Both the position numbers and the translations under genes were made by a program. Below are positions 5,413 through 7,323 of a stretch of 64,000 nucleotides of DNA, piece after piece (position 1 is the stretch's first letter; every line of letters starts with the position of its first letter). The DNA lies in contig JAMLIB010000002.1 of the NCBI GenBank assembly GCA_023954415.1, positions 62,001 through 126,000 on the forward strand, given 5' to 3'. The notes below the pieces were generated by a model. It made no database searches. It saw only the letters and a program-made list of their open reading frames with translations, and was not told where the DNA came from. Source of the stretch: Trueperaceae bacterium (GTDB lineage Bacteria > Deinococcota > Deinococci > Deinococcales > Trueperaceae).

Positions 5413-7323
5413 GTGATGGAGAAGCTGAAGATGCATTCAGTTGACTTGACCCAGGCGAACATCAATCGAATCGCGGAGCTGTTCCCGAACGTCGTCACCG
5501 AATCGCTCGACACCAACGGGCGCCCGATTCGCACCATCGACTTTGATGCCCTCCGACAAGAGCTATCCGATCACGTCGTCGAGGGACCCCAGGAGCGCTA
5601 CCAGCTCGACTGGCCAGGCAAGCGCGCGGCCGCGTTCGCCGCCAACGCACCAATCTCCAAGACGCTGCGTCCGATGCGGGAGGAGTCCGTCGACTTCGAT
5701 ACGACCAAGAACCTCTTCATTGAAGGTGACAACCTCGACGCCTTGAAACTGCTCCAAGAGTCCTATCTCGGCAAAGTGAAGCTCATCTACATCGATCCCC
5801 CTTACAACACAGGAAACGACTTCGTTTACAAGGATGACTTCGCCGAGTCTACAGCTGACTACCTAGAGCGTTCCGGGCAAGAGACCGAGGCAGGTGTCCG
5901 GTTGGTTGCTAACGCGGACTCCAATGGCCGGTTCCACTCCGACTGGCTTAGCATGATATATCCGCGACTGAAGCTGGCCAGGAACCTTCTGGCCGAGGAC
6001 GGCCTGATCTTCATCAGCATCGACTCGCACGAAGTCCACAATCTTGTCAAGATTTGCGACGAGATATTCGGCCCGGGTAGTCACAAGAACACGATCGCCG
6101 TTCGCCGCGGGATAAAGAACGTCCAGGCCCAGTTCGAGGACGTGAACGCGCTGTCTCAGGGCCATGAGTATGTGCTGCTGTACACGCGGAGTGAGGCAGT
6201 CCGACTTCCGAAACTGTCCCTCGCCCACGCTGAATCCAAGCCGGGAAAGTGGGACACCTTCTGGCGCGGAACAGATCGCCCCACGATGCGGTATGAACTC
6301 TTTGGCTCTACTCCCGCCTCGGGGCAGTGGCGCTGGGAAGAGGGCCGTACGAAGGAGGCCGTCCAGAACTACGAGACGTACCTTGTGGAACACGAGGACC
6401 GCACCAGCCTGGACGACTACTACCTTGATCACCTCGCCGCTACGAACGTCAAGCTCAACTTCGTGCGCCTCAACTTCGAAGGCGTTGTGCAGTACTACGT
6501 GCCGCCAAGCGCGGGAAAGCTACTCAGTGATAACTGGATGGACCTCACTCTAGGCGGCAACGAGACCGACGAGTTCGACACCGAGAAGAGCGTCGCGCTC
6601 CTCTCACGAATCATCAGCTGGGCCACACGTGACGTAGACCTCGTGATGGACTTCTTCGCCGGGTCAGGGACCACGGGACACGCGGTCTTCTCCGTGAATG
6701 CAACTGACGGTGGCCGACGGCGCTTCATCCTGGTCCAGCTGCCCGAAAGGATCGCCGGAAAAGAAGGTACGTCCATTGCAGCAATCACAATCAGTCGCTT
6801 GAAGAAGGCAGGAGCAGTTCACGCAGCTCTAGGCGCAGATACGGGGTTTCGAGCCCTTCGCATCGATTCAACCAACATGCTGGTCGCCTCTTCCTCCGCA
6901 GGTGATCTCGCGCAAGACGAACTCTTGGAGTTGATAGACCGTGTAAAGCCCGACCGCACTGACGAGGAGCTGCTCTTCCAAGTTCTCCTCGACTGGGGCC
7001 TCGACCTTGGTCTGCCCGTACAACGTGGGGTTTCGAGAGAGAGAGAGAGAGAGAGAGAGAGAGAGAGAGAGAGAGAACGGCAGTGGCGCCCACCACGTAC
7101 TTCCGCGTCGCAGACGACGCGCTCATCGCGTGCTTCAGCGAAGAGGTGTCCGCTGATGTGGTCACCGAGATCGCCAAGCTCCAACCACTCCGTGCCGTGT
7201 TCCGGGACTCGGCCTTCAAGTCTGACGCGGATCGCATCAACGCGGAGCAACTCTTCCGCGAGCTGTCGCCGAACACCGAAGTCAGAACGGTATGATCTCG
7301 CTGTTCTGGGCGGTGGCGCGTGA
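5413..7323 (+). CDS. Type III Mod DNA adenine methyltransferase with phase-variable GA tract (currently out of frame)
   Basis: This is a beta-class N6-adenine methyltransferase. The catalytic DPPYNTG is at residues 128-134 and the SAM-binding FAGSG at 415-419, with the target-recognition region between. A GTG at 5413 and an ATG at 5416 are both possible starts; GAGGAG at 5405-5410 favours the ATG. At residue 541 the frame enters 21 GA units (7035-7076), giving alternating Arg-Glu. Beyond it the frame yields a compositionally odd tail to 7323. The true conserved C-terminus (FRVADDALIACF to SPNTEVRTV, 7083-7295) lies in another frame. Losing one GA unit or gaining two would join the frames and give about 626 residues. 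The present product therefore keeps all catalytic motifs but has a wrong C-terminus. In type III enzymes that region supports Mod dimerisation and Res contact. Confidence 0.9.
   Translation: MMEKLKMHSVDLTQANINRIAELFPNVVTESLDTNGRPIRTIDFDALRQELSDHVVEGPQERYQLDWPGKRAAAFAANAPISKTLRPMREESVDFDTTKNLFIEGDNLDALKLLQESYLGKVKLIYIDPPYNTGNDFVYKDDFAESTADYLERSGQETEAGVRLVANADSNGRFHSDWLSMIYPRLKLARNLLAEDGLIFISIDSHEVHNLVKICDEIFGPGSHKNTIAVRRGIKNVQAQFEDVNALSQGHEYVLLYTRSEAVRLPKLSLAHAESKPGKWDTFWRGTDRPTMRYELFGSTPASGQWRWEEGRTKEAVQNYETYLVEHEDRTSLDDYYLDHLAATNVKLNFVRLNFEGVVQYYVPPSAGKLLSDNWMDLTLGGNETDEFDTEKSVALLSRIISWATRDVDLVMDFFAGSGTTGHAVFSVNATDGGRRRFILVQLPERIAGKEGTSIAAITISRLKKAGAVHAALGADTGFRALRIDSTNMLVASSSAGDLAQDELLELIDRVKPDRTDEELLFQVLLDWGLDLGLPVQRGVSRERERERERERERERQWRPPRTSASQTTRSSRASAKRCPLMWSPRSPSSNHSVPCSGTRPSSLTRIASTRSNSSASCRRTPKSERYDLAVLGGGA
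7035..7076 (+). repeat. GA dinucleotide microsatellite, 21 units, inside mod1
   Basis: An uninterrupted run of 42 bases of alternating G and A begins after TTTC and ends before ACGGC. Upstream codons start at positions equal to 1 modulo 3 and the conserved downstream C-terminus at positions equal to 0 modulo 3. The 21-unit allele is therefore out of frame; 20 or 23 units would be in frame. Slipped-strand mispairing at such tracts is the classic mechanism for switching phase-variable type III methyltransferases. Confidence 0.95.

Follow-up and report, generated by a model that had tools for sequence, protein, structure and literature searches.

A repeat tract in one of two tandem type III methyltransferases that apparently chooses which DNA sequences are cut

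SSRs are carried by 17.4% of the type III mods in REBASE, including mods of commensal and environmental organisms (PMC7394358), so there is nothing new in phase variation itself, and the environmental host that the initial annotation of the locus described here had treated as a surprise has precedents. In the phasevarions modA, modB, modD, modH, modM and ModS, the SSR lies in mod, its unit shifts the reading frame, and a variable TRD is held between conserved ends; switching is described as abolishing either Mod expression or Mod function. Where the cited papers give the tract position in a phase-variable Mod, the tract is near the start (PMC3498834, PMC9465063). M.MmyCI of Mycoplasma mycoides is a single mod with an AG dinucleotide tract that starts at nucleotide 320; related clones have it in an in-frame or an out-of-frame state, and its OFF form is an early stop (PMC3498834). 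The MAGa1570/MAGa1580 locus of Mycoplasma agalactiae has two tandem mods with GA tracts and one downstream Res, and many strains carry out-of-frame alleles; the tracts are close to the gene start, 5' of the TRD, so that an OFF allele encodes a truncated methylase and methylation is lost (PMC9465063). In NgoAV of Neisseria gonorrhoeae, a type I system, a poly-G tract in the HsdS specificity subunit sets whether that subunit is made whole or truncated and is not a plain ON/OFF switch of expression; it is the target sequence that changes (PMC7394358).

The structural reference for these enzymes is EcoP15I Mod2Res (4zcf), which has one mod and no tract. The EcoP15I Mod dimer is built by the N-terminal (NTD) and methyltransferase (MTase) domains and not by the C-terminal domain (CTD), the CTD of ModA (residues 539-644) contacts Res, and the dimer methylates without Res as a stand-alone methylase (PMC4490356).

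The locus reported here comes from a Trueperaceae bacterium (Deinococcota) and lies in a 64,000-nucleotide stretch of contig JAMLIB010000002.1 (assembly GCA_023954415.1, positions 62,001 to 126,000), called the window below. It has the frame-shifting SSR and the variable TRD between conserved ends of a phasevarion, the dinucleotide tract of M.MmyCI, the tandem mods, out-of-frame allele and single downstream Res of the M. agalactiae locus, and Mods homologous over their full length to EcoP15I, with a Res that likewise joins helicase and nuclease. Like the NgoAV tract, its tract chooses between forms of a subunit, but the predicted consequence is a change in nuclease coupling and not in target sequence. 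Unlike phasevarion tracts, it is not upstream of the catalytic and TRD region; it lies in the CTD, after a complete core, and in the upstream member of a tandem Mod pair. No paper on CTD-side tracts or on a Res-coupling switch was found in a literature search that did not cover the Atack 2018 type III survey, which is the main gap in any claim of novelty.

The operon and its GA tract

The window carries an operon on the plus strand that is assigned from its domain content to the type III restriction-modification systems. Its features are, in order:

1457-4729, plus strand: SNF2/DEAD helicase, 1090 aa (best PADLOC model HKD+Snf2)
4726-5391, plus strand: DUF4391 protein (PF14335, E = 2.8e-45)
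5413-7034, plus strand: Mod1 NTD, MTase, TRD and first part of the CTD, residues 1-541 (PF01555, E = 3e-30; PADLOC MTase_III, E = 6.4e-172)
7035-7076, plus strand: (GA)21 phase-switch tract (Tandem Repeats Finder)
7077-7295, plus strand: conserved Mod1 CTD tail, ON frame of 20 or 23 units (match to Mod2, dN/dS)
7077-7323, plus strand: foreign-frame Mod1 tail of the present 21-unit state (stop TGA at 7321-7323, overlapping the Mod2 start)
7320-9320, plus strand: Mod2, intact paralogue of Mod1 with a different TRD and no tract (closest solved fold, EcoP15I Mod)
9333-10985, plus strand: SLFN AlbA_2 + HATPase protein, accessory, between Mod2 and Res (domain matches)
11116-14193, plus strand: Res, helicase and RE_endonuc nuclease domain (PF04851, PF19778; PADLOC REase_III, 1047.9 bits)

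Both Mods match PF01555 and PADLOC MTase_III and contain the DPPY and FAGSG (FxGxG) motifs, with the TRD between the two motif blocks, and so have the make-up of beta-class N6 methyltransferases. The Res they have in common, downstream in the same operon, combines an SF2 helicase (ResIII) with a C-terminal RE_endonuc domain. The SNF2/DEAD helicase gene also lies 5' of DUF4391 and mod in relatives; its assignment as a DISARM DrmD-type helicase was rejected (NF038317, 145.7 bits against a cut-off of 610). The AlbA_2/HATPase gene is intact in the window and fragmentary in a Trueperaceae relative (L029, 9916-10347), and in L146 and L022 no copy was found between the Mod and Res genes. Transposase/integrase-like ORFs (66-1290), judged by eye from their translations, lie directly 5' of the operon and suggest a mobile defence island.

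The tract at 7035-7076 is visible directly in the sequence and consists of 21 GA units with 100% matches and no indels. A run of (GA)12 was reached in 0 of 100 dinucleotide-preserving shuffles of the window, and a pattern search of both strands of the whole 3.2-Mb genome returned no other tract of at least (GA)8. Two other repeats in the window are in frame. One is a 78-bp unit in 2.5 copies (36911-37107) near the N-terminus of a minus-strand ORF (35296-37194) that resembles a solute-binding protein, and ORF 20932-22575 contains the other close to its C-terminus, a 12-bp unit in 5.2 copies (22323-22385) that encodes a Gly-Gly-Thr-Asn run.

The GA tract encodes (Arg-Glu)n in every frame, and what follows it depends on the unit number. 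The present Mod1 ORF runs from 5413 through the 21 units into a foreign frame and ends at 7321-7323 as a 636-aa protein, its stop overlapping the Mod2 start (GTGATGG; window 7293-7325). Removing one unit in silico gives a single 626-aa Mod1 with the conserved tail ending at 7295, 23 units share this frame, and 22 units give a 581-aa protein that ends at 7156. The tail in the other frame is 71% identical to the Mod2 C-terminus over 62 aa. Residues 1-541 are translated in all three phases, and the tract follows them, downstream of the MTase motifs and TRD. Tandem Repeats Finder and the ORF translations thus bear out the initial annotation, which had described a perfect 21-unit tract splitting one Mod gene between two frames, the catalytic part in one and the conserved C-terminus in another, with the core retained and the frames rejoined by the loss of one unit or the gain of two.

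Position of the tract in the Mod fold

Structure models were built from the window and genome loci, leaving aside the plasmid homologs. The AlphaFold model of Mod2 (mean pLDDT 82.8) has EcoP15I as its top Foldseek match (4zcf_A, E = 1.4e-45, 672 columns), and the Mod profile matches EcoP15I residues 17-634, the CTD included. The CTD contains a hairpin at residues 592-605, and the window tract maps to its turn, at about residues 597-600 of Mod2 and 565-568 of EcoP15I. The equivalent site in EcoP15I is inside the CTD, after the whole MTase domain and TRD. The initial annotation had assigned the switched part to dimer and Res contact; by the EcoP15I structure (PMC4490356) the Res contact holds and the dimer role does not.

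The tract positions correspond to loops of the CTD model. In an ON allele from UBA11034 (L023), the CTD is still modelled confidently with a (Leu-Ser)n insert, so the length of the tract seems to be tolerable in the ON state. Poly-G tracts found in other relatives lie slightly earlier, near EcoP15I residue 502 and just before the strand counted as the end of the MTase domain; cut at this point, their OFF forms may be inactive as methylases.

Tracts in related loci

Relatives were collected as loci with similar Mods, from genomes and plasmids, and were thus partly chosen by similarity. CTD-side frame-shifting tracts recur in at least three phyla as (GA)11-20, (CT/TC)14-19, (CAACGAT)18 and G8-11, and in every CTD-side tract found the unit length is not divisible by three. 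The Trueperaceae relative L029 has (GA)11 at a Mod hairpin equivalent to that of the window, and two actinomycete loci have (GA)20 (L146) and (GA)14 (L220) at the same hairpin, so one hairpin carries alleles of 21, 11, 20 and 14 units across four relatives, as in phasevarions. The next loop of the CTD holds (TC)19 in Jonesia quinghaiensis (L024) and, twice, (CT)14 in UBA11034, the latter on a 6.9-kb contig of a MAG that may be mis-binned. The Mod tracts are the sole tracts of at least (GA)9 in the Jonesia and UBA11034 genomes. An interrupted CT tract in L147 is locked out of frame. The loop of the CT tracts also holds (CAACGAT)18 in another actinomycete (L219, from 8638), where the first of two Mods is out of frame; this heptamer is classed as an independent tract type at the same site. 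Seven Succinivibrionaceae loci (L186, L187, L188, L190, L192, L194 and L197) have G8-11 between the methylase core and CTD. One of them (L186; G517:C90, 1-12742) has five tandem Mods with tracts of G9, G9, G11, G9 and G8 in mixed frames, a possible 5-bit switch array.

CTD sequences are 85-95% alike within the GA group and 92-100% alike within the CT group, and the heptamer CTD is 65-68% like both. These separate lineages make at least four independent tract origins likely; the number is about four and not about twenty because related loci have in part inherited their tracts or acquired them by transfer. About 20 Mods carry a tract and five of them are in frame, a share that chance alone, at one in three, could give. 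The Bifidobacteriaceae relatives lack a CTD-side tract, two of them having short 5'-side poly-C/G runs, and the plasmid Mods L143-L145 are single and tract-free. Short poly-G/C runs in the classical position, on the 5' side of mods, are seen in some Succinivibrionaceae and Bifidobacteriaceae relatives (L189, L191, L229, L230).

The tracts are associated with tandem Mods. Of 16 loci with at least two Mods, 11 have a CTD-side tract, compared with 3 of 101 single-mod loci (Fisher p = 1.6e-9, a descriptive value only because the loci are related and partly selected by similarity). Among the three single-mod loci, L192 adjoins a truncated upstream Mod and L188 is near a contig end. In the actinobacterial/Truepera type, with GA, CT or heptamer units, an intact tract occurs in 8 of 10 upstream Mods and in none of 9 last Mods (p = 7e-4). 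The C-terminal switch site, which had been called unusual, is therefore not a one-off: it recurs in relatives and is tied to tandem mod arrays.

Close Mods were found in 2 of 111 Deinococcota genomes, that of the window (G000) and a Trueperaceae MAG placed in the same genus (G004, contig CALMXZ010000015.1), so there is no vertical series. Mods with 80-83% identity were found in Actinomycetota, and this distribution fits horizontal transfer.

None of the four GA assemblies has the tail in frame; read in the ON frame, the tails have dN values of 0.03-0.09 and dS values of 0.44-0.77. Between the window and L029 there are 23 synonymous and 6 non-synonymous changes (dS 0.77, dN 0.04). Differences within the GA group are nearly all synonymous when read in the ON frame, and the shifted frames lack such a pattern. 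The out-of-frame tails are thus under strong purifying selection in their ON frame. The length-variant orthologous tracts, the convergent tracts of other units and the selection on the tail uphold the proposal that this is a frame-shifting switch caught out of frame, and they strongly support the tract as an SSR switch that adds or removes the CTD of Mod1.

What the switch may control

The reading we hold to be probable, if only slightly so, is that phase variation acts on the coupling of Mod1 to Res, with restriction switched and methylation persisting. Slipped-strand mispairing would add or remove GA units. Of the three phases, one gives full-length Mod1, and the other two give a Mod1 in which the NTD-MTase-TRD part is whole and the tail is foreign or truncated. 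Since in EcoP15I the CTD contacts Res and does not form the dimer interface, OFF Mod1 is predicted to retain methylation, either by itself or paired with Mod2 in a heterodimer, and to be unable to recruit Res. The switch would then select whether the Mod1 recognition sequence serves restriction, with methylation kept as self-protection, and the tract-free Mod2 would keep one specificity always armed.

The main rival is ordinary ON/OFF switching, which we regard as rather doubtful but a serious contender. Out-of-frame Mod1 would be misfolded or unstable, methylation and restriction would be lost together, and the C-terminal site would be incidental. The phase-variable Mods in PMC5149525 and PMC7394358 behave in this way, the tandem Mods of M. 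agalactiae with N-terminal GA tracts switch methylation itself (PMC9465063), and the foreign tail of Mod1 is long and basic. However, in most of the tract-bearing mods found, unrelated tracts lie after the methylase core, which is unexpected if any frameshift sufficed, and OFF forms of the GA, CT and heptamer type retain the entire MTase domain and TRD. A different role for the tract phase, that it mainly sets expression of the next Mod by translational relay, is improbable. In the ON phase the stop codon is 28-43 nt short of the Mod2 ATG; in one OFF phase it overlaps the ATG (TGATG/TAATG), and in the other it is 56-182 nt upstream. In 9 of 9 tract-bearing Mods, drawn from three CTD lineages, the +1 frame can be read through to a stop that overlaps the following ATG, but a codon-shuffle null gives 0.05-0.50 per locus, so the overlap is only suggestive as a feature of tract-bearing Mods. 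The lineages also share the intergenic segment, about 5 of 20 tract-free Mods keep the +1 frame open too, and the ON frame of the tails is conserved at the protein level.

It is very unlikely that the frameshift is an assembly error in a gene that is truly in frame, or that Mod1 is a pseudogene. The assembly is a draft of 30 contigs and the tract of L147 is locked out of frame, but independent genomes have the same arrangement with other tract lengths and units, and a dead Mod1 is rejected because its tail is under purifying selection, with changes that are nearly all synonymous in the ON frame. Least probable of all, and barely credible, is ribosomal or transcriptional slippage on the tract, by which one cell would make a fixed mix of forms from unchanged DNA. 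A long tract within a coding region would allow it, but tract length varies among relatives, with the gene in frame in some and out of frame in others, and to our knowledge dinucleotide repeats are not classic slippage sites.

The Res-coupling reading extends tentatively to the tandem-Mod loci as a class. We put somewhat below an even chance on a class in which CTD-side tracts arose several times, so that each specificity can be connected to a shared Res or disconnected from it with its methylation intact; this would be a combinatorial, self-safe selector of restriction specificity, with five Mods and five tracts in L186, and the opposite of a phasevarion. When a restriction system changes specificity, it risks cutting its own DNA, since new sites need to be methylated before Res acts, and switching the Res-contact domain instead of the methylase would, if the reading is true, solve this problem. 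A clonal population could then hold different active anti-phage restriction specificities under one common methylation pattern, and some of the tract-bearing mods now catalogued as phasevarions may leave methylation entirely unswitched.
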